Shown here: positions 33,351-48,070 of the stretch, piece after piece
How positions within the stretch are numbered: the stretch's first letter is position 1
Layout of the letters: each line of letters begins with the position of its first letter
NCBI GenBank assembly: GCA_026983715.1
Contig: JALSTM010000182.1
Coordinates: 1-48,785 of the forward strand
Direction of reading: 5' to 3'
Source: Desulfobacterales bacterium
Lineage (GTDB): Bacteria > Desulfobacterota > Syntrophobacteria > B119-G9
DNA: 48,785 nt
Position numbers and translations under genes: made by a program
Notes under the pieces: generated by a model
Seen by the model: the letters and a program-made list of their open reading frames with translations, nothing else
Database searches by the model: none
Told to the model about the DNA's origin: nothing

Positions 33351-35945
33351 ATGCTAAAGTTCTTAAAAATGTTAAAAAAAGAAAGGCGGAAAGGCTCTGA
33401 TGAAGAGGAGCATTTTCGAGAAAAATACGAAGCCTTTATGACAATTCTTGCAGAAAATGAACATGCGCTGGAATTGATGACAGAATTAGAAAAAAAATAT
33501 TACAGCAGCGAACTAACCAGTATCCCATATTTGAAAAACGTTATAAAGAACCTGTCCAAGAGTATTAGGTATGTTGTGGACAGCCTGGTTCAGCTATCAG
33601 GAGGAAAGTACAAAGAAGTTGTCGATGTATTCGAAGAAATAGAAGATGAGATTCGTGAGATAATTACTGGAAAAAAAGAGCCTTTATATACTCCCGTCAT
33701 CATTCCCATGGACCAGCTCACAAAAGAATTCATTGACAAAGCAGGTACCAAGATGGCTAACCTTGGAGAACTTCGCAATAAGGTAGGGCTGCGAGTTCCG
33801 GATGGTTTTGCCGTAACAGCCTGTGCGTATCAACAATTCATCGACTACAATTCGATAATCCCGAAGGCCGCAAAGATTCTTGAGAAACTCAACATAGACG
33901 ACAACCAGGAACTCATCAAGGCTGAAAAAGAATTAAAGAAGCTCGTCCTGGAGGCAGAAGTCCCACCCGAAATTTATTATCTTATAGAAAAACACTCAAA
34001 AGAATTGGAAAAACGTGCAGGTAAGCAGCTTTTCTGGGCAGTTAGGAGCAGTGCCCTTGGTGAAGATTTAGAAAATTCCTTTGCAGGCCAGTTCTCCACC
34101 GTTTTAAACGTACCCACTGACGAACTTGCTACCAAATACAAAGAAGTGATCTCAAGCAAATACAATGCTCGAGCAATCGTGTACAGGAAAATTAAGAATA
34201 TCAGGGATGATGATATAAGTATGAGCGTGGGAATAGTAGAAATGATCCACCCACTTTGTTCAGGGGTTTTATATACCACTGATCCGGTGAAACCCGAAAA
34301 ACAAGAGATTATTATCAATGCCGTATGGGGGTTGGGACAGCTACTTGTAGAAGGAGTGGTTTCGGCAGACATTTTCGTAATTGATCGATCTAATGGCTTT
34401 TCCATCAGGAAAGAAGAAATAGCGGAAAAACAGGTTTGCCTGGTGGAATGTAGAAGTGGGGGAACAGATTATGAAGTGGTTCCAGATGACAGATGCTCGA
34501 AACCTTGCCTTGATGAACGACAACTAGAAGAGCTTGCAGAAGTCGCCGTAAAGGTTGAAAAACACTTTTCGTGCCCCCAAGATATTGAATGGGTCTACGA
34601 CAAGAATGGCGAACTCTACCTTTTGCAGGCCAGGCCGCTACACGTAATTAAGGCTAGTTCAGAAGAAGAAGCAACGCACGTTTTGGACGCTCCCATAATA
34701 TCGAAAAAGGGTGAGCCCGTCAGCGCTGGAGTCGCAGTCGGTAAGGTTTTTAAGCTAGATGACATCCATGATCTCATTAATCTACCTCGGGGTGCAGTAC
34801 TCGTTACTCGCAGTTCTACCCCCAGGCTTGTAAAAGCTGTTGGAAAAGCTTCCGCAATACTGGCAGAGAGAGGTAATACGACGGATCATATGGCATCTGT
34901 CGTTAGAGAATTCAAAATTCCGTGCATGGTAAAAGTTCCCGAAATTTTTTCCAAGCTTCAAAATGGACAGGAGATAACAGTCGACGCTACGCTAGGTATT
35001 ATTTACGAAGGATGTTTTCCTGAATTGATTAAAGAAGAAACGGAACTCAAGGAAACCTGGATCGACGTAAAAAATACCGAGTCCTACCAGGTGCTTCAAA
35101 GGCTTTCAAAATTAATAATACCCCTTCATCTCACAGATCCTAGGGACCATAATTTCAGGCCTGAATGCTGCAAAACCTGGCACGACATTCTCAGATTTTG
35201 CCATGAAACTGCATTGAATGAAATGTTTTCGCTTACAGAGAAAGAAGAGATCAAGAAGATTAAGCAGGTATACAAGATAAAAACTAAGCTGCCCTTCCAA
35301 CTTTACGTACTGGATCTCTATGGTAATACCGTGCAAGTAAAAGAGCAAAAGACAATCGACCCGGAAACCGTCAATTCCCTCCCCTTTCAAGCCCTATGGA
35401 AAGGGATGTCTGCACCTTATGTCCCGTGGTCGGGTCCCCCGGTGGCGATGAGCATGAAAGATCTGCTTGGGGCAATGTCGCGAACGACATCTCTGGAAAG
35501 TGCACCAAAAGATACGAGGAGTCTGGCAGTAGTTACTAAGGACTACCTCAACCTGAGCTTGAGTATGGGATTTCATTACGTTATACTTGATGCCTATCTT
35601 TCAAGTCACCCGTTTAACAATTATATCTCTTTCTCCTTCAAAGGGGGAGCTGCAGAACTACGAAAGCGAGAACTGAGAGTAACACTTGTTGGAAGGATTC
35701 TCCAGCGCCTGGGGTTTGAAGTAAAGAAAACAAGAGACTTCCTAAAAGCAAGAATAAAGGCTGACACAGCAGAAACTCTGGCAAAAAAACTAAACACCAT
35801 CGGCAGAATGCTGGGGGTAACACGGCTCTTAGACATTGCCATGTCTTCGGAAGAAACTGTTGAACAGTACCTGGAACGTTTCTTTAACCAGGATTACTCA
35901 TTAGAAGCTGGAAACGATAAGACTGTCTCCCAGTCAAGCGGCTAA
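33351..35945 (+). CDS. PEP-synthase-like protein with unknown C-terminal domain (plus-strand copy)
   Basis: An 864-residue cytosolic protein. Residues 1-105 form a helical N-domain. Residues about 120-445 are the ATP-grasp PEP/pyruvate-kinase N-domain: MANLGEL, WAVRSSALGEDLENSFAGQ, SGVLYTTDP, QDIEWVYDKNGELYLLQARP. Residues about 465-560 are the swivelling His domain with catalytic His H513 in TTDHMASVVRE. The C-terminal PEP barrel of PpsA is not recognisable. Instead residues 590-855 form a domain shared with the 40343-42913 protein (RPECCKTWHDILRFCHETA). It can probably form phospho-His from ATP but cannot be a normal PEP synthase. Partner: the adjacent receiver. Confidence 0.88.
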   Translation: MLKFLKMLKKERRKGSDEEEHFREKYEAFMTILAENEHALELMTELEKKYYSSELTSIPYLKNVIKNLSKSIRYVVDSLVQLSGGKYKEVVDVFEEIEDEIREIITGKKEPLYTPVIIPMDQLTKEFIDKAGTKMANLGELRNKVGLRVPDGFAVTACAYQQFIDYNSIIPKAAKILEKLNIDDNQELIKAEKELKKLVLEAEVPPEIYYLIEKHSKELEKRAGKQLFWAVRSSALGEDLENSFAGQFSTVLNVPTDELATKYKEVISSKYNARAIVYRKIKNIRDDDISMSVGIVEMIHPLCSGVLYTTDPVKPEKQEIIINAVWGLGQLLVEGVVSADIFVIDRSNGFSIRKEEIAEKQVCLVECRSGGTDYEVVPDDRCSKPCLDERQLEELAEVAVKVEKHFSCPQDIEWVYDKNGELYLLQARPLHVIKASSEEEATHVLDAPIISKKGEPVSAGVAVGKVFKLDDIHDLINLPRGAVLVTRSSTPRLVKAVGKASAILAERGNTTDHMASVVREFKIPCMVKVPEIFSKLQNGQEITVDATLGIIYEGCFPELIKEETELKETWIDVKNTESYQVLQRLSKLIIPLHLTDPRDHNFRPECCKTWHDILRFCHETALNEMFSLTEKEEIKKIKQVYKIKTKLPFQLYVLDLYGNTVQVKEQKTIDPETVNSLPFQALWKGMSAPYVPWSGPPVAMSMKDLLGAMSRTTSLESAPKDTRSLAVVTKDYLNLSLSMGFHYVILDAYLSSHPFNNYISFSFKGGAAELRKRELRVTLVGRILQRLGFEVKKTRDFLKARIKADTAETLAKKLNTIGRMLGVTRLLDIAMSSEETVEQYLERFFNQDYSLEAGNDKTVSQSSG

Positions 35946-36145: not shown

Positions 36146-38065
36146 CTAAAGTTTAATCTGTACTCCTATTTCAATAACCTGATCGGGGGGAATGCGGAAA
36201 AATCGGGTAGCATCCCTTGCATTTCTGGAGAGGAAAGCAAAGAGTTCTTTTCGCCATGTTTTCATTCCCCTGTCCCCTTTTATCAGTAAAGTTTCGCGCC
36301 CCAAGAAAAATGTTATTTCTGAAAGGTTTATATCAAGCTCTTCACTCTTTAGATGGCGCAAACCCCTTAGGACATTGGGATGCTCACTGAATCCATACCT
36401 GAGAATTACCCTGTAAAAACCTTCCCCTATCTCTTCGACTATTGATCTGTGCTTTCGCCTGACAAACGGTACTTCTTCTATCCGAACATGAAGAAGAATT
36501 ATCCTCTCATGAACAATTTTATTATGGTGAAAATTTCGAATAAGCGGAACAGGTGTACCTACAGGGTTACCAGTAAGAAAAATTGCTGTGCCGGGAACCC
36601 TGTAAGGTCTTTTTTCTTTGACTTGCTGCAAAAATTCTTTCAGGGGAACCACTTTCTCATCTATCCGTTTCTTTACCAGTTCCCGACCCTTTTTCCATGT
36701 CGTCATGAGGGTAAAAACGGTTAGGGCTACAAGAATTGGTACCCAGCCCCCTGAGGCAATCTTTGTAATATTGGAAGTGAAAAATCCCGTGTCAATGATC
36801 AGTAAAAATATTGTGAGCGGCAAAATTTGCCACAGTTTCCAGTTCCACAGGATGTGAGCCACTTCGAAGACCAGAAGAGTGGTAATAACCATGGTCGCTG
36901 ACACTGCAATACCGTATGCGGCGGCAAGATTGCCAGAATGGCGAAAACCAATAACCAGGCAAACAGTACCAATCAAAAGAATCCAATTGATACTAGGGAC
37001 ATAAACTTGCCCTATCTCTTCCCGTGAAGTATGCAATACGGTAAGGCGCGGGCTAAAGCCAAGCTGCATGGCTTGCCGTGTTAAGGAAAAAGAACCTGAT
37101 ATCACAGCCTGTGAAGCGATCACTGTAGCCATGGTAGCCAGTAGCACGAGGGGGTAAAGGGCCCACGAAGGAGCCAGTTTATAAAATAAGTTGTCCACAG
37201 CTTCCGGATGATCGAGAAGGAGTGCTCCCTGCCCAAAGTAATTCAAAAGGAGCGCAGGAAAGACCACAGAAAACCATCCTAACTGTATCGGCTTTCTCCC
37301 GAAGTGTCCCATGTCCGCATAAAGGGCTTCCCCGCCGGTTACTACCAGAAATACCGTCCCAAGCACTACAAACCCACGCCAGCCGCCTTTTGTAAATATA
37401 TGGATGGCAAATCTCGGATCAAACGCCATGAAAATCTTCGGGTCCTTGATTATTTCTTTAATCCCAAGGACGGCAAGAACAGAAAACCAGACGAGCATTA
37501 CCGGTCCAAAAATAGACCCTATTCCTGCAGTTCCGCGTTTCTGGAACATAAAAAGCGCTATAAGGATCGCAAGTGCTATCGGAATTACGTAAGGCTCAAA
37601 AAGCTTGGTTGCAACGTTAAGACCTTCAACGGCGCTAAGGACCGATATTGCTGGCGTTATCATGCCATCACCGTAAAGAAGGGCTGCCCCAAAAATCCCA
37701 AGGACAGTCATTAACAGTAACTTTGTTCCTCGTTTTTTCACACAGCTCGTGCCCAGCGTCATCAGGGCAAGAATACCACCCTCACCACGGTTGTCTGCAC
37801 GCATAACAAAGACCAGGTATTTAAAGGATATAACAATAACCAGGGACCAAAAAACAAGAGAAAGGACTCCTAAAATGTTGGCAGGAGTTACTGGGAGTGC
37901 ATCCCTACCTCGAAAACACTCTCTTACAGCGTACAAGGGGCTTGTCCCGATATCCCCGTAAACGATACCCAGTGCAGCAAGGGTTAATTTAAGTACGTAT
38001 GAAGAGTCTCTTCCGTTAGAGCCTTCTACACCATGATGTGCGCCTTCATTGTCTGTTTGTACCAT
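36146..38065 (-). CDS. kup: Kup-family potassium uptake protein
   Basis: A 639-residue transporter with about 12 membrane helices and a soluble C-terminal domain. The start region LAALGIVYGDIGTSPLYAV is the Kup signature, with ADNRGEGGILALM, GDGMITPAISVLSAVEGL, and a GGEALYADMGHFG segment. It drives H+-coupled K+ uptake in E. coli. It is the last gene of the minus-strand operon from 45102, 11 bases after the Usp gene, which suggests that K+ accumulation is part of the same stress response. Confidence 0.97.
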   Translation of the reverse strand: MVQTDNEGAHHGVEGSNGRDSSYVLKLTLAALGIVYGDIGTSPLYAVRECFRGRDALPVTPANILGVLSLVFWSLVIVISFKYLVFVMRADNRGEGGILALMTLGTSCVKKRGTKLLLMTVLGIFGAALLYGDGMITPAISVLSAVEGLNVATKLFEPYVIPIALAILIALFMFQKRGTAGIGSIFGPVMLVWFSVLAVLGIKEIIKDPKIFMAFDPRFAIHIFTKGGWRGFVVLGTVFLVVTGGEALYADMGHFGRKPIQLGWFSVVFPALLLNYFGQGALLLDHPEAVDNLFYKLAPSWALYPLVLLATMATVIASQAVISGSFSLTRQAMQLGFSPRLTVLHTSREEIGQVYVPSINWILLIGTVCLVIGFRHSGNLAAAYGIAVSATMVITTLLVFEVAHILWNWKLWQILPLTIFLLIIDTGFFTSNITKIASGGWVPILVALTVFTLMTTWKKGRELVKKRIDEKVVPLKEFLQQVKEKRPYRVPGTAIFLTGNPVGTPVPLIRNFHHNKIVHERIILLHVRIEEVPFVRRKHRSIVEEIGEGFYRVILRYGFSEHPNVLRGLRHLKSEELDINLSEITFFLGRETLLIKGDRGMKTWRKELFAFLSRNARDATRFFRIPPDQVIEIGVQIKL

Positions 38066-38076
38066 AGGGTTACCTG

Positions 38077-38967
38077 CTACCTCAGCACCAGTACGGAAGT
38101 GCTACAAGTTTTAATAAACCTGCCTATCGTGCTTTTTGAAAAGAATCGATCGAGGAGGGATTTTTTACCCATCCACAGAGCCAGAAGACCTTCTTTAACT
38201 TCGCTTTTTAGAAACGGCTCAAAATCACTTATTTCGTAGTACTTGAGAGACACTTTAATGTTTTTACTCTCAAGGTAGTCGTGTACCTTTTCAAGCCACG
38301 GATATACGTCCGCCTTAATTCCCATTCCTTTTGTTAATCCTATCAGGTCAACCTCAGCCCTGTGAATTGTAACCATCTGGTTTATCATCTCCAGAGATTC
38401 CTGGGTAATGTTTGTCTCGTCAAGGCACGCGTAAATCTTATTTATGGGGTGGGCTTCCTTGACTAGAAATACGGAACATTCCGCCTCGTTCACTATTTTC
38501 TCTGGTACGTACGGCACGTCTTCCCAGAGACACTGAGGGCCCTTGGTGCAACCCAGTATGATTAAATCGCTATCCGTTTCCCTTGATTCTGCGAGAATTT
38601 CCTTTACCACGTTACCAAATCGTACCTTCACTTTAAGATCCTTAAAACTGCCCCTGCATACCTTTATCTGTTCCCATACGGTCGATCTGGAAGTCAACCA
38701 CTCATACTTGCAGTTGCTTGCCTCATAGGGCGATTCACCCTTTTCCCAGTGACCCAAGAATATCTCCCTGTACCTGTCAAGTGCATTTAGCATCGGATCA
38801 TCCAACTTCAAAGAGCTGAACACACCACCTTGCACATCCCGGGATGGGCTACTTTTGGCAACCCCAACTATCGTGACACCTGCAAGGGTGTTTTCCGCAA
38901 GATTAACAAGCTCTTGAAGTGCGTACTCGCTGTATGGCATTGTGTCTGCAGCGAACAAGATCCTCAT
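38077..38967 (-). CDS. Universal stress protein, tandem Usp domains
   Basis: A 296-residue protein. The first Usp fold starts ILFAADTMPYSEYALQ and ends around SDLIILGCTKGP and ECSVFLVKEAHP. The second domain (about 165-296), KIYACLDETNITQESLEMIN ending TCSTSVLVL, is also Usp-like but has lost most of the ATP loop. A good AGGAGGG precedes the start. Such tandem proteins occur in stress and membrane-transport operons; the ligand is unknown. Confidence 0.85.
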   Translation of the reverse strand: MRILFAADTMPYSEYALQELVNLAENTLAGVTIVGVAKSSPSRDVQGGVFSSLKLDDPMLNALDRYREIFLGHWEKGESPYEASNCKYEWLTSRSTVWEQIKVCRGSFKDLKVKVRFGNVVKEILAESRETDSDLIILGCTKGPQCLWEDVPYVPEKIVNEAECSVFLVKEAHPINKIYACLDETNITQESLEMINQMVTIHRAEVDLIGLTKGMGIKADVYPWLEKVHDYLESKNIKVSLKYYEISDFEPFLKSEVKEGLLALWMGKKSLLDRFFSKSTIGRFIKTCSTSVLVLR

Positions 38968-39045: not shown

Positions 39046-39816
39046 TCAAGCCCAGCATAAAAGAATAGGTGATGGAAGGTGCTGCACAAACTCAACCAGT
39101 GGCGCCTTGTCGATCTTGCCTCTATTAACGCCAATCGCTACTAGCCCGTAATCACGCAATCTTCCTACTTGGTGGGTGTTTTTTATCCTGTGTATATCTC
39201 CCACTTCGAAACCGCATTCCTTTAGGACTTCTTCAGCCTCCTTCTCATCCACGGATTTAACCAGGAATTCCGGTATCATTGCATCCATAGTCCATTTACC
39301 ACCCTTAAACAGGTTATTAAACATTGATAACATAGCCTTGGTAGTTGGCCGTTCCCTTATGACCAGCAAAACCTTATCAAGCGGTGTTAAATTCTGCACA
39401 AGGAGTATCGGGCAGGGAGCAGTCATGTACAGGGAACTCTGTAACTTTTTAGCAAGACCCTTGGACGAAAGAGGCCGCCGAATGCCTTCAACAAAAAGAT
39501 CGTACCCTCCCTTTTCGAGATGTTCCTGAATCTCTTTCTTGGGATCTCCCGCAAGAACGATGGGCTGGATAGAAACAGGACAGTACTGCTTTTCCGCCGT
39601 CAAAAGCTGTTCAATTTCCTTTTTACTCTCCTCCAGTTGAATCTTCTCCCAGGTTCTCCTTGCCCACCCTGCATGAACCATGTGTGAATGCCCCTCAGGT
39701 TGGTGAGCATGAATGGCCTGAATTTCCATGTCAAACATTCCCGCTAGATTACACGTGTATCTTAAGGCAATACTAGATGAGAGATCTGGATCAACATAAA
39801 CCAACGCTTTAATCAT
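39046..39816 (-). CDS. Universal stress protein-like, tandem domains
   Basis: A 256-residue protein. ATG 39816 is preferred over the upstream GTG (39822), since AAAGGAG is seven bases before the ATG. The first Usp domain has LVYVDPDLSSSIALRYTCNL and YDLFVEGIRRP ... CPILLVQNLTP. The second domain starts DKVLLVIRERPTT and ends LPSPILLCWA. The nucleotide loop is not well kept, so it may be a ligand-binding or structural Usp. Second of two tandem Usp genes after the receiver. Confidence 0.8.
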   Translation of the reverse strand: MIKALVYVDPDLSSSIALRYTCNLAGMFDMEIQAIHAHQPEGHSHMVHAGWARRTWEKIQLEESKKEIEQLLTAEKQYCPVSIQPIVLAGDPKKEIQEHLEKGGYDLFVEGIRRPLSSKGLAKKLQSSLYMTAPCPILLVQNLTPLDKVLLVIRERPTTKAMLSMFNNLFKGGKWTMDAMIPEFLVKSVDEKEAEEVLKECGFEVGDIHRIKNTHQVGRLRDYGLVAIGVNRGKIDKAPLVEFVQHLPSPILLCWA

Positions 39817-39907
39817 TGACACGCTCCTTTATCATTTTTAATTTTCTTTTTTTACGTCCGCCTCGTCCAATTATTCCCCCTATATTCTATACCCCTCTCT
39901 TTGACTC

Positions 39908-40318
39908 CTACCCTTTACCTTTCCCTGAAGCCTCACCGGCTTTTTTCTTCCTTTCCGCTTTTTTCACTACTTCTCGAATTTCGCTTATTTTAAAAGGTTT
40001 CGCCACGAAATCAAAAACGCCTTTCTGGAAAGATTCCTTGGCAGTTTCCATGGTTGCAAATCCTGTAATTACAATTACTTCAGTCTCAGGAGACCTTTCC
40101 TTCACAGCCGTAAGAAACTGCATTCCATCTACGCCCTCCATTTTGAGGTCGGTAATGACGATATCAAAATCTTGTTCCTGAACTCTTTCCATGGCCTCGG
40201 AACTGTTAGTGAAGGCTTCCACCTCGTATCCAAGCTTCTCAAATGCGGGTTTTAGCCTTTTACAGACGATAGGTTCATCGTCCAGAATTAAAATACGAGT
40301 CTTGCTCTCTTCACTCAT
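39908..40318 (-). CDS. Single-domain response regulator (receiver)
   Basis: A 136-residue receiver followed by a Lys-rich tail (KKAERKKKAGEASGKGKG), without output domain. ILDDE, the phospho-Asp in IVITDLKMEGVDG, and FVAKPF are intact. ATG 40318 is chosen because AGGAGG lies just upstream. It closely resembles the receiver of the DUF202 protein (VEAF..., VITDLxMEGxDG) and, like it, is next to a PEP-synthase-like gene, 24 bases downstream of it. Confidence 0.93.
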   Translation of the reverse strand: MSEESKTRILILDDEPIVCKRLKPAFEKLGYEVEAFTNSSEAMERVQEQDFDIVITDLKMEGVDGMQFLTAVKERSPETEVIVITGFATMETAKESFQKGVFDFVAKPFKISEIREVVKKAERKKKAGEASGKGKG

Positions 40319-40342: not shown

Positions 40343-42913
40343 CTATCTCAAAAGTCCGCCAATACGTTGTTTGAATTCTTCCTCGAAATGATTCACGTGA
40401 TCATCATGTTTCATGAGCACGTCAAGCTGGCGGGTATATGCTACAAGGCCTCCCAGTAAAACGACCCTTCTTTCCATTTCATCCCTTGGCAATTTCTTTA
40501 TCCGCCCAATGACCAGGTCACCCTTGATCTCGACCCTGAAATCATACTGTTCCAGGATGTTCGCTATAAACCTAGCCCTTCGGGATCTTCTGGTAATCTC
40601 TGTCACCCCTCCAAGGAAGCGGAAATACGCGTAGTTATCGTTTACGCTATCACTTATATAAACGTCGATTATGTTAAAATGATAGCCCAACCTAAGGCTC
40701 ATGTTCATGTATTCCTTGCTCAGCACCACGAGATTTTTCCCGACCTGTTCCGGGCTAGCCATGGAAGACGAAAACGTTCTTGTAAGACTAGACATAAAAC
40801 TTCCGAGATCAACCGAGACAGGCTCATTAGCCCACAACCCTGCATGGCAAAGACCTTTTACGAAGGCTATCATTGGTATGGAAGTAATCATGTCCATGGT
40901 AACGACGTTTTTATTTTCAAGTTCTTTTATTCCTCCCCCAATGTCAAGCACCGAAACACCAAGAGGTATATCAAGTTCAAGACGCTTAAGCCCTGATCTG
41001 AGCCACTTACTGGATCTTTCGCCGATTTGAATGAGCTCATCCACGGCCTTTTCATGTACGAAGCGAACAATATCGTGGTACGTCTGGCAGCCATCTGGCC
41101 TGAATCTTTCATCATGAGGATCAACTATGTTCAACGGAACCACCTTTCTCAATATCCTTCTCAAGAGGCGGTACTCGTATGATTCCTCAAAAACATCTTC
41201 TTGAATCAATTCGTAGAGGCACAACTCCTTGAATTTCCCCGCATATACGACATTTTGAGTTGCGTCAACCGTGATTTCATCGCCAGTCTTTAACATCTGG
41301 GTGGCAACACCGGTGTTAACTATGGTAGGAACCCTGAATTCCCTGGCAACCGTTGCCATGTGCCCGGTGGGAGATCCTATGTCGGTTAAAATAGCAAGTG
41401 CTTGCTTTATCGCCTTGGTCAATCTCGGAGAAGTGTGCCTAGCAACAACGATAGAACCAATAGGGACTTTGCCCACGTCATCGTCAGTCTCTATCACGAA
41501 TACCGTTCCGCATGCCACGCCTCTTTGAACAACGTCTCCCTTCCCTTCGAAAAGTACCTTCTGACCCTGGGTAATGTCGGGAAGCAGACAGAATTCTCCC
41601 ATGTATGGTAACTGGACTTTCAGGGGCCTAGTTTGAAGGATTATCAATTCATGGTTTTCGCCTATTGCCCACTCGATGTCCTGGGGCCTTTTATAATAAC
41701 GTTCAAGAACCATTGCCACGTGAGCCAGACGTTCAATATCTTCTGACGTCAGACAGGGTTTATGCTGGCGGTCTTCCGGGACATCCACTTCTCGTGTTCC
41801 GCCACCTTCTTCCGCCACAAGCATTTTCGCTTTGTGTACAATATTTAAGTGCTTTACCGTGTAGGGAGCATCCCTGCTTACGTGATACCTGTCCGCAGAA
41901 GCCTCACCGGAAACCACCGGAGCCCCTAGACCCCACGTAGCTGATATCACCATCAAATCTTTTTCTGGTGAAATAGGATCCATCGTGTAAAGGACACCAC
42001 TTGAGCGAGGATTCACCATAAGCTGGCACCCTACGGCCATGGAAATCTCGTGCTCAAGGAATCCCTTTTGCTGGCGGTACTCCCAGGCTGTGGGAGAGTA
42101 AGTACTGGCTATTACTTTCTTGTAATAATCCAACACCTCTTCATCCGGAACATTCAAAAAACTTTCATACTGGCCCGCAAAACTGTGTTCCGTATCTTCC
42201 TCTATGGCACTGCTTCTAACCGCAAAATAGATCCTTTCCTCACCGAGCTTGGACTTTAACTTTGTTACAGCACGTCTTATTTCCTTTGCCACACCGGTGG
42301 GAACCTCACTTTGGAGTATCTTGTCAGTAACCTCCTTAGAAATAGTTTCCAAGGAAGTGGCGCCGTGCCTGATATCGTTCTCAATATCTTTCAGGATCTT
42401 ATCAATCCCGCTTTCACCTAAGAACTCGTGGAAAGCCCTGGTGGTTATTACAAACCCATCAGGAGTAAGAAGTTCAAGCACGCTATTAATCTCACCAAGA
42501 TTGGCGTTTTTATTGCCCACGGATTCGATATCATCCATGGTAACTTCCTCGTAGAAAACAACCAGACGTTCATCTCCGTAGGCAGGTCTTCCTTCCAGTT
42601 CTGCCTGGATCTGCGACTGGATGCGCTCGTATGCATGGTAGAGGTCAACATATTTCTGAGATGTGAGCATGTTAAGGTCATAGATTATCTTATAGACCAG
42701 GTCGTTGAGCCTGTTACTTACATCAATTATGTACTGGCGATCAAATACGTAATCACCTCCGAGCTTGTCCCCCATGTCTGCCATGATCTCAAGTATTTCG
42801 TTGTTTCTTTTTAGTATGCTTTGAAACCTGGCAAACAGGACCGCAAAAGAAGTTGGATCCGTCCTGGTCCGCCAAAAGGCAAGCTTATGTTTTATGCGCT
42901 CAAAACTTCCCAT
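40343..42913 (-). CDS. PEP-synthase-like protein with unknown C-terminal domain (minus-strand copy)
   Basis: An 856-residue protein with the same plan as 33351-35945. A helical N-domain (1-110) precedes the ATP-grasp domain: NKNANLGEIN, FAVRSSAIEEDTEHSFAGQ, SSGVLYTMDP, QDIEWAIGENHELIILQTRP. The swivelling domain has H518 in SPTGHMATVAREF. The C-terminus (about 590-850) shares RPDGCQTYHDIVRFVHEKA with the other copy. No PEP-barrel motifs are seen. AAGGGG precedes the ATG. It is 15 bases from the TIGR02186 gene and 24 bases before the receiver. Confidence 0.88.
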   Translation of the reverse strand: MGSFERIKHKLAFWRTRTDPTSFAVLFARFQSILKRNNEILEIMADMGDKLGGDYVFDRQYIIDVSNRLNDLVYKIIYDLNMLTSQKYVDLYHAYERIQSQIQAELEGRPAYGDERLVVFYEEVTMDDIESVGNKNANLGEINSVLELLTPDGFVITTRAFHEFLGESGIDKILKDIENDIRHGATSLETISKEVTDKILQSEVPTGVAKEIRRAVTKLKSKLGEERIYFAVRSSAIEEDTEHSFAGQYESFLNVPDEEVLDYYKKVIASTYSPTAWEYRQQKGFLEHEISMAVGCQLMVNPRSSGVLYTMDPISPEKDLMVISATWGLGAPVVSGEASADRYHVSRDAPYTVKHLNIVHKAKMLVAEEGGGTREVDVPEDRQHKPCLTSEDIERLAHVAMVLERYYKRPQDIEWAIGENHELIILQTRPLKVQLPYMGEFCLLPDITQGQKVLFEGKGDVVQRGVACGTVFVIETDDDVGKVPIGSIVVARHTSPRLTKAIKQALAILTDIGSPTGHMATVAREFRVPTIVNTGVATQMLKTGDEITVDATQNVVYAGKFKELCLYELIQEDVFEESYEYRLLRRILRKVVPLNIVDPHDERFRPDGCQTYHDIVRFVHEKAVDELIQIGERSSKWLRSGLKRLELDIPLGVSVLDIGGGIKELENKNVVTMDMITSIPMIAFVKGLCHAGLWANEPVSVDLGSFMSSLTRTFSSSMASPEQVGKNLVVLSKEYMNMSLRLGYHFNIIDVYISDSVNDNYAYFRFLGGVTEITRRSRRARFIANILEQYDFRVEIKGDLVIGRIKKLPRDEMERRVVLLGGLVAYTRQLDVLMKHDDHVNHFEEEFKQRIGGLLR

Positions 42914-42928
42914 TAAAACCCCTTGCGG

Positions 42929-43723
42929 CTAGTGAGCTCCCTTGCCAGCACCAAATATCAGTCCCATAAGGAGCCCACCAAGAATGGCAACAATTGTGGC
43001 CAAAACACCGTAGAGCAAAGCATGCTTGAAGGCCATCTTGTATAAGAAAGCCGGCAGTCCTACCAGTTTTGCCTCTATTGGTATTACCTTACTACCTGTA
43101 ATGTTTCCGTCCGCAAGCGCGTAAACTTCCACGGCATAATTACCCGGAGTCAGCGATGACGGAACCTTCACGTGAGCTTCAAATGGCTCGATATCTCCAC
43201 CTTTCTGAGTAACCTTAACACCTTCGGAATTCTCAACGTAAAGGCCTTCGAGTTTCTTCATTTTTACAAGTTCCTTGACGAGGAAAGTTTTATCTTTGGG
43301 CTCAGGTTCGATATCTATCTGACTTTCAAGAGCCTCCAAGCTTAACCTCCACGCATCGTTACTGCTCCCACTGGCCTCCCTGGACCCAGAAGCGAGTTGT
43401 TTGTTTGAATAAATAAGACAAACGTTTGGAATACCTTTAAAAACAAAGGTATCCAGGTTCATCCAAAGCAACCCGAGTACTTTTCCCTTTTTCTTCAAGT
43501 GAAGATCTTTTTTTATACCCATGAACCTAACGACTACGTCGCTGCCTGCAGGAACACTCCCCATTACCTTGATGTCTGCACCCCTATAGAAGGTACCAAG
43601 CAATAAACTGGCGGGTTCAACCTTTACCTGGATCTTTTGAGTACAGTTTCCAAAACCCGGAAGCAAGAACAATAGACTGATAGTAACTATCACATTAAAT
43701 ATTATAACTTTTTTCCATCTCAT
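42929..43723 (-). CDS. TIGR02186 family membrane protein
   Basis: A 264-residue protein with an N-terminal signal/anchor (about 5-25), an extracytoplasmic beta domain, and one C-terminal helix (about 232-258). LLLGTFYRGADIKVMGSVPAG and the KKGKVLGLLWMNLDTFVFKGIPNVC stretch match the TIGR02186/Alph_Pro_TM pattern. In other bacteria such genes adjoin TauE/SafE permeases, as here (four bases apart), so it probably assists that permease. No enzymatic motif is visible. Confidence 0.85.
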   Translation of the reverse strand: MRWKKVIIFNVIVTISLLFLLPGFGNCTQKIQVKVEPASLLLGTFYRGADIKVMGSVPAGSDVVVRFMGIKKDLHLKKKGKVLGLLWMNLDTFVFKGIPNVCLIYSNKQLASGSREASGSSNDAWRLSLEALESQIDIEPEPKDKTFLVKELVKMKKLEGLYVENSEGVKVTQKGGDIEPFEAHVKVPSSLTPGNYAVEVYALADGNITGSKVIPIEAKLVGLPAFLYKMAFKHALLYGVLATIVAILGGLLMGLIFGAGKGAH

Positions 43724-43727
43724 TTTC

Positions 43728-44672
43728 TTAATGCCCTCCAGTATAAGCCAAGAAAACCTTAGGTGGCAGTAAAAGCCCCAGCAACATTTTCACCATTACC
43801 AAAAGCACCAGGATAGCCAAAAATATCTTGATCTGTTCTCCCTTTAGCTTTTTGCTTATCTTTGCTCCGAACTGAGCCCCCACGGTTGAACCTAAAAGCA
43901 GTAACAACGCGAGAACAAAATCAACGGTGTGGTTAGTGTATGCCTGCATTATGGTAACGTCAATGCAGGTAAAAAGTATTTGGAAGAGGCTTGTCCCCAC
44001 CACAACGTGCATGGGCATCCTCAACAGATACACCATGACCGGGACCATGATAAATCCGCCTCCCACTCCCATAATGGCAGCCAGGATACCCACGAATACC
44101 CCGAGCACCAGGGGCATAAGTATGGACAACCGTACTCCTGACCGCGTAAAATCAGTTTGGAAAGGCAGTTTTTTGACCAATTGTGCATATCTCGATTCCT
44201 TTGTCGGAATTGGGACTTCGGCAACCTCGATTTCTTTTTTACTTTTCTTTAATGATTGTAAACTTTCCAGGAGCATATAGCTTCCAATAAAACCCAGCAT
44301 AAGTACATAAGTAATTTTTATCAAAAAGTCGGCATTGCCAAGCTGCCTCAGTACCTTGATAATTTGAACTCCGACTGTACCTCCAATCACCCCACCTATT
44401 AACAGGAGAATCCCCATTTTGAAATCTACATTCCCTAGTCTGAAATGAGCGATGGTACCAGACGTAGATGCTCCAACTATCTGATTAGAATCCGAAGCGG
44501 CAGCAACTGTAGGAGGTATCCCTATCATGATCAGGAGTGGAGTCATAAGGAAGCCTCCTCCAACTCCAAAAATTCCTGACAAAAGCCCAACTAGAAGTCC
44601 TAGACTCAATACCAGTAAAATGTTAACACTGCTTCCTGCAATCGGTAGATATAAATACCACGGTAGATGCAT
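43728..44672 (-). CDS. TauE/SafE-family sulfite/sulfonate permease
   Basis: A 314-residue inner-membrane protein with about eight helices in two related halves. Each half has a glycine motif: GIFGVGGGFLMTPLLIMIG and IMGVGGGFIMVPVMVYLL. ATG 44672 (with GGAAGGA before it) is preferred over a longer in-frame start that would overlap the Usp gene. The family exports sulfite or sulfonates across the inner membrane; the substrate here is inferred only. Paired with TIGR02186. Confidence 0.9.
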   Translation of the reverse strand: MHLPWYLYLPIAGSSVNILLVLSLGLLVGLLSGIFGVGGGFLMTPLLIMIGIPPTVAAASDSNQIVGASTSGTIAHFRLGNVDFKMGILLLIGGVIGGTVGVQIIKVLRQLGNADFLIKITYVLMLGFIGSYMLLESLQSLKKSKKEIEVAEVPIPTKESRYAQLVKKLPFQTDFTRSGVRLSILMPLVLGVFVGILAAIMGVGGGFIMVPVMVYLLRMPMHVVVGTSLFQILFTCIDVTIMQAYTNHTVDFVLALLLLLGSTVGAQFGAKISKKLKGEQIKIFLAILVLLVMVKMLLGLLLPPKVFLAYTGGH

Positions 44673-44697: not shown

Positions 44698-45102
44698 TTA
44701 AGTTCTCTTTTGCACAATCTCTATTCTACATTGAACACGATGTCTGATATTCTGGTGTGCTTTTAAACATTTTACACTCTCCTTGTAACCCTCATCCGCC
44801 TGTTCAACAATCAGGTGAGTTATCCCATGCTCTTCGACAAAACTTATCACCTCCTCTTCATAGGACCCTCTACAAACATAAAACTCTACGAAAATACCCT
44901 TTGATTCAGCATCTTCAAGCATTAACTCCAATCTTTCCCTTACCGATTCTTCCTCGTCACTTGCTACATTTTCTACCCATTGTTCCGGGTAAATAAGGAG
45001 CACAGACACGTGTGCACTCAGGCGTTCGGCAAGGTTGAACGCTCTATCCAGGGCTTCCCACGCCCCGCGCTGTGCTTCAACGCAAACAAGTATTCTTTCC
45101 AT
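44698..45102 (-). CDS. UspA-type universal stress protein
   Basis: A 134-residue single-domain Usp. ILVCVEAQRGAWEALDRAFNLA opens the fold, and HGITHLIVEQADEG holds the third strand. The C-terminal Gly-rich ATP loop (GS-x-T) is missing, so ATP binding is unlikely. The ATG at 45102 is preferred to a TTG two codons upstream. First gene after the sigma-54 promoter at 45128-45145. Confidence 0.8.
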   Translation of the reverse strand: MERILVCVEAQRGAWEALDRAFNLAERLSAHVSVLLIYPEQWVENVASDEEESVRERLELMLEDAESKGIFVEFYVCRGSYEEEVISFVEEHGITHLIVEQADEGYKESVKCLKAHQNIRHRVQCRIEIVQKRT

Positions 45103-45127: not shown

Positions 45128-45145
45128 AAGCAAGCATAGTGCCAG
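45128..45145 (-). promoter_or_regulatory. Sigma-54 promoter of the Usp-TauE-...-Kup operon
   Basis: The minus strand reads CTGGCACTATGCTTGCTT: TGGCAC and TTGCT with GG and GC exactly 10 bases apart, an almost perfect -24/-12 element. Transcription would start near 45118, about 16 bases before the Usp ATG. Confidence 0.85.
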
Positions 45146-45208
45146 AAATTACATTATTGAAATGCCAGCACAATTTCACCAAACAGAATCACTGAAGAGC
45201 TAGATTTG

Positions 45209-45221
45209 TTTCATTATGAAA
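45209..45221. promoter_or_regulatory. Upstream palindrome 1 (possible NtrC-type activator site)
   Basis: TTTCATTATGAAA, a perfect palindrome about 97 bases before the predicted start site. Its 5-base arms match palindrome 2 (TTTCAnnnTGAAA). Confidence 0.6.
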
Positions 45222-45249
45222 TAAATTGAGATATTGCAAACAAATGCTA

Positions 45250-45262
45250 TTTCAAAGTGAAA
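45250..45262. promoter_or_regulatory. Upstream palindrome 2 (possible NtrC-type activator site)
   Basis: TTTCAAAGTGAAA, centred 41 bases (about four helical turns) from palindrome 1 and about 138 bases before the start site, the usual distance for an enhancer-binding protein. It lies just before the end of the regulator gene at 45267. Confidence 0.6.
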
Positions 45263-45266
45263 CCCG

Positions 45267-46649
45267 CTAAAATGTTTTTTTCAGCGACCTTCCGGATACG
45301 AGGGATGATTCAAGCCCGTACTTTTTTAATTTTCGCCATAAAGTTGTTCTAGGCACTTTTAGTATTTGAGTTGCCATGGCTTTGTTGTGTCCAGTTTTCT
45401 CTAGAACTTTCATTATGTAGCGTTTCTCCACTTCTTCCAGAGGCAACAGTCCTTCCCCTTCAAAGGTATCGAATTCGAGCTCCCTAAGATCCGCCGGGAG
45501 GTCGTCCACTGTCAACATATCCTTTTCAGTCAGCGCCACGGCCCTTTCAATGATATTTTCCAGCTCCCTCACGTTCCCCGGAAAACTGTAATTCAGAAGG
45601 ATATCCTTTGCCAGTTTGTCTATTCCTCTAACTTTTTTGCCAAAAAGGGTACTGTATTTATCGATAAAGTGGGAAATCAGGAGAGAAATATCCCCATTGC
45701 GCTCGGTTAAGGGGGGAAGTTTTATGGTCACAACGTTTAGGCGAAAGTAAAGGTCTTCCCTGAAGTTACCGAGGGAAACCTCGTGTTTAAGGTCCTTGTT
45801 GCTGGCAGCAATAATTCTGATATCCAGATTAACGGGCTCTATGCCACCCACCCGCAGGATCCTTTTTTCCTGAATAACGTGCAGAAGTTTTACCTGCATT
45901 GAAAGGGACATCTCGGTGACTTCGTCTAAAAAAACCGTCCCCCCCGATGCCGCTTCCATCAATCCAATCTTCGTTGCATGGGCACCTGTAAAAGCACCCT
46001 TTTCATAACCAAAAAGCTCACTGGTAATCAATTCTTCCGTAAATCCTCCACAGTTAAATGCAACGAAGGGTCGATTTTTCCGAGGGCTCAACTCATGGAT
46101 AGCCCTGGCCACAAGTTCTTTCCCGGTCCCGCTCTGCCCAAGAAGCAGTACATTGCAGTCCACCGCAGCAACCTTGTAAATAAGTTTAAAAACTTCCTGC
46201 ATGGCGGGACTTTTTCCAACTATTTGCTTTATTACATCCTTGCCCTTGAGCATTTCCCTAAGTTTACGATTTTCCTTTCGGAGTTCAATCTTCTCGTGCG
46301 CTCTATTTACCAGGGATGCCAGTTCGCGGATCTTGAATGGTTTTGTTACGTAGTGAAATGCCCCAAGCTTAATAGCCTTGATTGCGGTTTCAATAGAACC
46401 GTAGCCAGTAACAAGGATCACTTCCGTATCAGGATTCAACCGTTTTACCCTCGTTAAGACTTCAAGTCCGTCAACATCAGGTAGCCTGAGGTCCACCAGG
46501 ACGATGTCGAACGATGTTTGCCTTATTCGCTGAAGAAATGCAGAAGCCGAACCGAAGGTTTCAACATCGAAATCATCTTTAGAAAATACATGGGCAAGAC
46601 GACGACAAATTGTTACTTCGTCGTCTACAACAGCCAATCTACCCTTCAT
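45267..46649 (-). CDS. NtrC-family sigma-54-dependent response regulator
   Basis: A 460-residue regulator. The receiver (1-125) has VVDDE, the Asp in IVLVDLRLP and a YVTKPF Lys. The AAA+ domain (about 140-375) has GQSGTGKELVARAIH, the sigma-54 loop EKGAFTGA, and GTVFLDEVTEMS. A C-terminal Fis-type HTH (about 420-450) reads NKAMATQILKVPRTTLWRKL. It overlaps the kinase gene by four bases (ATGA). It probably activates the sigma-54 promoter at 45128-45145 by binding the two palindromes. Confidence 0.96.
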   Translation of the reverse strand: MKGRLAVVDDEVTICRRLAHVFSKDDFDVETFGSASAFLQRIRQTSFDIVLVDLRLPDVDGLEVLTRVKRLNPDTEVILVTGYGSIETAIKAIKLGAFHYVTKPFKIRELASLVNRAHEKIELRKENRKLREMLKGKDVIKQIVGKSPAMQEVFKLIYKVAAVDCNVLLLGQSGTGKELVARAIHELSPRKNRPFVAFNCGGFTEELITSELFGYEKGAFTGAHATKIGLMEAASGGTVFLDEVTEMSLSMQVKLLHVIQEKRILRVGGIEPVNLDIRIIAASNKDLKHEVSLGNFREDLYFRLNVVTIKLPPLTERNGDISLLISHFIDKYSTLFGKKVRGIDKLAKDILLNYSFPGNVRELENIIERAVALTEKDMLTVDDLPADLRELEFDTFEGEGLLPLEEVEKRYIMKVLEKTGHNKAMATQILKVPRTTLWRKLKKYGLESSLVSGRSLKKTF

Positions 46650-48070
46650 TTTTTATCAACTTCCCCCTTTTCTGCACCGCTTTTTGGAAGATAAACAGAA
46701 AAAGTTGTTCCTACGCCAACCTCGCTTTCAACTTCTATGTAACCGCCGTGTTTTTTAACCAGTCCATAGGTTACCGCAAGCCCAAGGCCAGTTCCACGTC
46801 CTACTCCTTTCGTGGTATAAAAAGGCTCAAAAATATGTTCAAGGTCCTCTGGCTTAATCCCATGACCCGTGTCTGATACGTCAATTCGCACAAACTTATC
46901 GGAATAATCGTAGGCCTCTATGGAGATCTTGCCACCATCAGGCATGGCCTGTATGGCGTTAAGGAGAAGGTTCAAGAAAACCTGCTGCAAATTTCTCAGG
47001 TGCCCCCTTATTACAGGAAGATCATCAGGGATTTCCACCTTAAGTTCAATCCCAGTTAACATTACCTGGTTTTTGACAAGTTTAACTGTTTTGTTTATTA
47101 CATCCGAAACGGAAAGTTCCTCAAACGAAGGCTTGTCTTTCCTGGAAAAGTCAAGAAGATTTCTGACTATCTCACCCGCCCTGTCTGCTTGGTTCAGTAT
47201 ATCAAGTATCAACTCCTTTTCCTCGGGGTCGAGCTTGTCCCCAGACTCATCTAGCAGAGTCTCGGCGGAAAGGTATATATTATTGAGGGGGTTATTTAAT
47301 TCGTGGGCAATCCCGGCGGAAAAGGTCCCAATAGCGGCAATCTTCCTTGACTGTACTAATGCTTCCTGCTGGGTTTCTAGTTCCTCGGCCATCCTGTTAA
47401 AGGCATGTATCAATTCACAAATTTCATCTTTCGTGTGACATTCGTAAGGGATCGGGCTGAAGTCCCCCCGGGCAACCCTCTTTGTTGTTTCTTTAATGAG
47501 GGAAAGAGGTTCTAGTAACCTTGACAATAACTGGAGGATCAGGAGTTGCAACGCCAGCACAATAGCAAAAAACAGAAAAGGAATAACCGTGGTCCTGTTT
47601 ATCGCTTGGTGGATATGCTTTCTTTTTGTTTCTAAAAGGTTGATCGCAAAGTCCACCAGTGCTTTACCGGAACCCCTAACTTTTTCCAAGCCCGCGGCAT
47701 CCCTGGAACTGCTAACTTTAAAAGAAGACATGAGAAGTCTGTACTCTTTAAGACTCTTTAGGAATTTATCACACTTTCCTTCCCCAACAATCCTTCTAAT
47801 GTCTTCCTGGTATTGATCTACAAATTTTTCAACCTTGGAAAGATATTCCAGGTTTTTATCCAAGTCCTCCATGTCATGGTACAAAAGAAAATTCTTTTCG
47901 AAACGCCTCACTTCCAGGATGTCATTTAGAAGATCTTCGAAATGCTCTCCAAGAGCCATTTTATACTTTATGGATCTTACGCTACCCCAGTAAAGAAGTG
48001 CCACTATGCAGGTAAAAAAAAGACTTATTACGAAAATTCCGATGGTTTTGCTTCGGATGGTCTTAAACAT
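46646..48070 (-). CDS. Membrane sensor histidine kinase partner of the NtrC-type regulator
   Basis: A 474-residue kinase. TM1 is at about 8-28, an extracytoplasmic helical domain at about 30-155, and TM2 at about 157-182. HAMP follows (LSLIKETTKRVARGDFSPIP). HisKA has GIAHELNNPLNNI, and the ATPase boxes are LLLNAIQAM, DTGHGI and GRGTGLGLAV. The periplasmic part looks like a four-helix bundle, a ligand-binding type seen in chemotaxis and NtrB-like sensors. The signal is unknown. Operon with the regulator. Confidence 0.95.
   Translation of the reverse strand: MFKTIRSKTIGIFVISLFFTCIVALLYWGSVRSIKYKMALGEHFEDLLNDILEVRRFEKNFLLYHDMEDLDKNLEYLSKVEKFVDQYQEDIRRIVGEGKCDKFLKSLKEYRLLMSSFKVSSSRDAAGLEKVRGSGKALVDFAINLLETKRKHIHQAINRTTVIPFLFFAIVLALQLLILQLLSRLLEPLSLIKETTKRVARGDFSPIPYECHTKDEICELIHAFNRMAEELETQQEALVQSRKIAAIGTFSAGIAHELNNPLNNIYLSAETLLDESGDKLDPEEKELILDILNQADRAGEIVRNLLDFSRKDKPSFEELSVSDVINKTVKLVKNQVMLTGIELKVEIPDDLPVIRGHLRNLQQVFLNLLLNAIQAMPDGGKISIEAYDYSDKFVRIDVSDTGHGIKPEDLEHIFEPFYTTKGVGRGTGLGLAVTYGLVKKHGGYIEVESEVGVGTTFSVYLPKSGAEKGEVDKK

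Follow-up and report, generated by a model that had tools for sequence, protein, structure and literature searches.

A sigma-54 circuit with paired palindromic sites, predicted to control a Usp–TauE–PEP-synthase-like operon that recurs across Desulfobacterota

As far as the text of two accounts of D. vulgaris regulation goes (Rajeev 2011, PMC3333781; Kazakov 2015, PMC4641369), the NtrC-family regulators of this organism recognize palindromic sites with arms of 4-6 bp and spacers of 3-8 bp, and one of them, DVU0539, is described in parts of PMC3333781 and PMC10102598 as activating the DVU0542 promoter in E. coli. A second described system of interest is the Desulfovibrio 'nitrate cluster' (DVU0251-DVU0245 / Dde_0597-Dde_0605), in which mutants of two Desulfovibrio strains showed strong nitrate resistance and for which a leaky thiosulfate transporter was proposed (Korte 2014, PMC4001038). 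Permeases of the TauE/TSUP family, for which transport of sulfur compounds is predicted, are abundant in sulfate reducers, and their functions are not yet predictable (PMC5840216). Here we describe an operon with such a permease, found in a 48,785-nt window (the whole stretch of DNA analysed) from a bacterium of the sulfate-reducer type, together with the regulatory circuit that very likely controls it.

All genes of the operon lie on the minus strand. The first, Usp1 (44698..45102, PF00582), has its ATG at 45102 and is followed by a TauE/SafE (TSUP) permease (43728..44672, PF01925; about 70-95% identity in cassette relatives), a TIGR02186/Alph_Pro_TM membrane-anchored protein (42929..43723, scoring above the cut-off for PF09608 and below the curated cut-off for TIGR02186), a PEP-synthase-like (PPS-like) dikinase (40343..42913; PF01326, PF00391), a stand-alone receiver (REC; 39908..40318, PF00072; median 74% identity in cassette relatives), Usp2 (39046..39822) and Usp3 (38077..38967), both PF00582, and, as the last gene, a Kup potassium transporter (36146..38065, above the cut-off for TIGR00794). 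Pfam thus agrees with the gene names of a first-pass annotation made from the sequence. That annotation also spoke of an eight-gene operon, which is true of the host genome (G000) and of a sibling species (G002), the only other genome with Kup in this position; as Kup belongs to the operon in this genus only, the unit found elsewhere is the core Usp-TauE-TIGR02186-PPS-like-REC. The intergenic gaps are short except for 85 bp before Usp2 and 78 bp before Usp3, and internal promoters are possible, chiefly in these two gaps; co-transcription of Usp1 through Kup is predicted.

The dikinase carries the ATP-grasp and phosphohistidine domains seen in PEP synthase and rifampin phosphotransferase, and these are followed by a C-terminal domain that structure models and searches left unassigned. 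These 283 C-terminal residues (window 40346-41194, minus strand) are strongly conserved, had no Pfam match above cut-off and no sequence match in PDB, and in fold comparisons gave no convincing match: the top VIA-align Z was 6.1 for an alignment of 64 residues, and Foldseek returned nothing at E <= 0.001. This make-up suggests an enzyme acting on an unassigned phosphate acceptor. The window also encodes another PEP-synthase-like dikinase, 864 aa long and with PPDK_N and PEP-utilizers domains, at 33351-35945 on the plus strand, convergent to the operon, and a homologue of this second protein (52% identical) adjoins a receiver gene in another locus (L150).

Upstream of the operon, also on the minus strand, Pfam confirmed the NtrC-type regulator and kinase that had been read from the sequence. 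The response regulator (45267..46649) consists of a receiver (PF00072), a sigma-54 AAA+ domain (PF00158) with an intact GAFTGA in its translation, and a Fis-type helix-turn-helix (PF02954, HTH_8) containing ...VPRTTLWRK; the membrane sensor histidine kinase (46646..48070) has HAMP, HisKA and HATPase domains, and its extracytoplasmic sensor region matched no Pfam family. The regulator fell below the NCBIfam curated cut-off of every named equivalog among the matches listed, namely AtoC (441.5 vs 714), NtrC (416.4 vs 558.6), NtrX (357 vs 600) and ZraR (385.3 vs 760).

Between the regulator's stop codon and the Usp1 ATG lie a sigma-54 element and two palindromes. The element, TGGCACTATGCTTGC (45130..45144, minus strand, read from 45144 to 45130), had been called near-perfect; it matches the -24/-12 consensus at 10/10 positions, is the sole exact match within the window, and keeps its position in cassette relatives. 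The genome encodes rpoN (PF04552, E 1.7e-65). The proximal palindrome TTTCATAATGAAA (45209..45221), which is kept in relatives, and the distal palindrome TTTCACTTTGAAA (45250..45262) are predicted regulator sites; both are exact copies of TTTCAnnnTGAAA, the only two in the window, and they differ in register by 41 bp as originally noted, a tandem arrangement also seen at cassettes from other families. Their starts precede the element by 77 and 118 bp and lie at -119 and -160 from the Usp1 ATG. With a predicted start site at ~45118, 12 nt past the -12 GC, the palindrome centres fall at ~-97 and ~-138, which bears out the positions first assigned to them; the distance of 16 bases before the Usp start, which had been given for the -24/-12 element, is correct for this predicted start site only, the element itself starting at -42 from the ATG.

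The 3.39 Mb genome holds 14 exact matches to TTTCAnnnTGAAA, as against 2 to the reversed pattern; two of the 14 are at the locus, and the other 12 have no -24/-12 element within 400 bp. A palindrome followed after 50-140 bp by TGGCAY-N5-TTGC occurs once genome-wide, at the locus; the search for palindromes ahead of -24/-12 elements that the first-pass annotation had proposed as a check returned this one instance. A wider regulon in the host genome was considered and set aside, since among the 14 exact palindromes only the locus pair is near a sigma-54 element.

From these components we propose, with a probability of roughly 0.87, that the operon is controlled by a dedicated circuit running from kinase to enhancer-binding regulator to a two-site sigma-54 promoter. 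In this circuit the membrane kinase (46646-48070) would sense a signal and phosphorylate the receiver of the adjacent regulator, dimers of which would bind the two TTTCAnnnTGAAA palindromes, 41 bp or about four helical turns apart. The bound regulator would then loop onto sigma-54 RNA polymerase and open the promoter by means of its AAA+ GAFTGA domain, giving transcription of Usp1-TauE-TIGR02186-PPS-like-REC-Usp2-Usp3 and, in this genus, of Kup as well. Phosphorylation, binding, start site and co-transcription are predicted here from what is usual for these protein families; binding of the regulator to the two matched sites is, on the sequence comparisons below, very probable.

Whole genomes and named GTDB contigs supplied the cassette relatives; nearly all of the named records belong to Desulfobacterota. 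The core order in the relatives is kinase-regulator, Usp, TauE, TIGR02186, PPS-like and REC, often with two further Usp genes after it, and the regulator pair is mostly upstream of the cassette, co-directional at 50 loci and divergent at 34. We scanned 100 distinct upstream regions of homologous TauE cassettes in Desulfobacterota for palindromes with at most one mismatch located 25-313 bp upstream of a sigma-54 element. An element with at least one palindrome was present in 80/100 regions, as compared with a mean of 0.48 in dinucleotide-preserving shuffles, and with at least two palindromes in 55/100 (shuffle mean 0.0), though the regions are related rather than independent, and the statistics make the independent events look more numerous than they are. 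The consensus over 140 sites was TTTCAwwwTGAAA, with T2, C4 and G10 invariant, and the spacing between neighbouring sites peaked at 41-42 bp and 80-82 bp. Among the distances from site to -24 the dominant periodicity was 10.5 bp, with a power of 20 when all 140 distances were taken and 4.8 when each of the 75 distinct values counted once, a pattern like that of an enhancer that keeps to one face of the helix; as the list of site-to-site spacings has its peak at a period of ~13.3 and not 10.5, we claim helical phasing for the promoter distance only.

Scans that were not anchored on the cassette led back to it. Exact tandem palindromes 41-42 bp apart were found at four places in 395 genomes of the phylum, 4/4 of them at the cassette (reversed control 0), and when up to two mismatches were allowed in 55 genomes of the class, 8 of 11 tandem-pair places were at the cassette promoter. 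These results bear on the simplest alternative, that AT-rich intergenic palindromes happen to stand beside a coincidental -24/-12 sequence. It is true that within the window one-mismatch palindromes are no commoner than in shuffles, but neither the excess over shuffles in homologous regions nor the convergence of all four exact pairs on one promoter would be expected of chance, which we regard as an exceedingly improbable explanation. In one genome (G029, L154 3983-8891) two palindromes 41 bp apart, with a -24/-12 element of their own, precede a DUF202/MshEN-kinase-receiver operon; given the matching layout of this second promoter, the regulon can include more than the cassette, with this operon as another target. 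The sibling species G002 (L043 7948-8113), which is the nearest relative, has kept both palindromes, 39 bp apart and one with a mismatch, and has no recognisable -24/-12 element (best score 7/10), so its promoter is either unrecognised or lost.

Presence of the sites also follows presence of the regulator. Sites were found in 75/84 regions with a regulator and in 5/16 regions in which none was detected, all five on truncated contigs; among regions with ample flanks the figures were 52/59 and 0/4 (Fisher p 5.5e-4). Nine regulator-bearing regions had no sites at the strict cut-off, and some of these retain versions with two mismatches. In two loci, L049 (6435-6640) and L051 (6730-7063), the regulator gene has been deleted almost completely, with remnants left, and Usp1, the sites and the promoter are gone alongside it. 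Cassette-linked regulators show hardly any variation in their recognition helix, PRTTLWR(K/R).

It might still be argued that the palindromes serve some other activator of the enhancer-binding type, or a repressor, and that the adjacent two-component system controls something else. The five site-bearing regions with no visible regulator gene could be read in this way, were they not contig truncations, and genomes of this group do encode many NtrC-type paralogues. The paralogues that share a genome with the cassette regulator differ from it in the recognition helix (DRVSLWRK and TRATLHKK, for example), and near their genes there are no paired palindromes, only scattered one-mismatch matches. 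As the cassette regulator is adjacent at nearly all loci, in both co-directional and divergent arrangements, and as the sites vanish where it is deleted, we consider control by another protein unlikely.

A further alternative is that the palindromes work at the RNA level, or form part of the regulator gene's terminator, and are not protein-binding sites. The distal palindrome does end 4 bp from the regulator's stop codon, and the two palindromes could pair with one another in a transcript. Against this, the predicted fold is ordinary (z -1.37, with 26/200 shuffles folding as well), shuffles contain terminator-like sites at least as often as the region does, and in the divergent arrangements the sites are not downstream of the regulator gene, all of which makes a role in RNA very improbable, more so than that of another protein. 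The kinase-regulator-sites-promoter circuit of the first-pass annotation, by comparison, is supported by footprinting across relatives, regulator-site co-occurrence, natural deletions, promoter phasing and unbiased scans, and the recurrence of switch, sites and operon across Desulfobacterota indicates that the wiring is real. The recurring regulator, site and promoter offer a direct handle on what switches the module on, and therefore on its purpose, and other genomes can be annotated by looking for TTTCAwwwTGAAA sites that are spaced 41-42 or 80-82 bp apart and lie in phase with a -24/-12 element.

Among published systems, the nitrate cluster has a similar gene content; it shares a TauE permease, a receiver and a dikinase-like protein (PPDK_N + PEP-utilizers) with our operon, the comparison being of gene content only. 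A PtxB-like protein, a phosphatase and a kinase of its own set this cluster apart from the operon, as does the lack of a Usp in the published table; the paper makes no mention of sigma-54 (PMC4001038). Since TSUP permeases are predicted for sulfur compounds and in view of the nitrate-cluster phenotype, the operon probably serves in handling a sulfur oxyanion or a similar anion under stress. Literature searches found nothing directly on TIGR02186 or on this gene set, and, in published text, no description of the regulator-site pair. More tentatively, and with the balance of our judgment against it, we speculate that this is a phylum-wide Desulfobacterota regulon with a dedicated, nearly single-target sigma-54 regulator, in which the dikinase-like enzyme, with its unassigned acceptor domain, and the highly conserved REC act on the TSUP anion permease, a form of post-translational transport control that has not been described before.

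With regard to the switch itself, the likeness to the D. vulgaris set, in so far as the text of PMC3333781 and PMC4641369 describes it, extends to a receiver-AAA(GAFTGA)-Fis HTH regulator with an adjoining kinase gene and to short palindromes upstream of a -24/-12 promoter beside the regulator gene. The same text, as distinct from the motif logos and supplementary tables, includes no regulator with these sites and this operon, and it may be that an orthologue has already been assigned this motif. The kind of switch is thus a familiar one, and the specific unit of regulator, site and operon appears undescribed in the literature outside the motif logos of the D. vulgaris papers. DVU0539/DVU0540 with DVU0542-DVU0545, by theme the nearest arrangement on record, is, in the portions of PMC3333781 and PMC10102598 that deal with it, likewise a kinase-regulator pair over a Usp-transporter-Usp operon, the transporter being of the PSE family, unlike the TauE/TSUP permease here. 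In related genomes the regulators of PSE-linked kinase and NtrC-type regulator pairs (L274-L279) are 35-41% identical to the window regulator, and their loci mostly have a sigma-54 element and no TTTCAnnnTGAAA pair; judged by these relatives rather than by DVU0539 itself, identity of the two systems is unlikely. Finally, the general stress system DVU3305 / DVU3302-3298 has, according to the part of PMC3333781 concerned with it, an NtrC-type regulator over membrane and UspA-domain proteins, as in our locus, and differs, as the corresponding part of PMC4641369 describes it, in its linked receiver-Lon protease gene and in having GAFSGA where the window regulator has GAFTGA.
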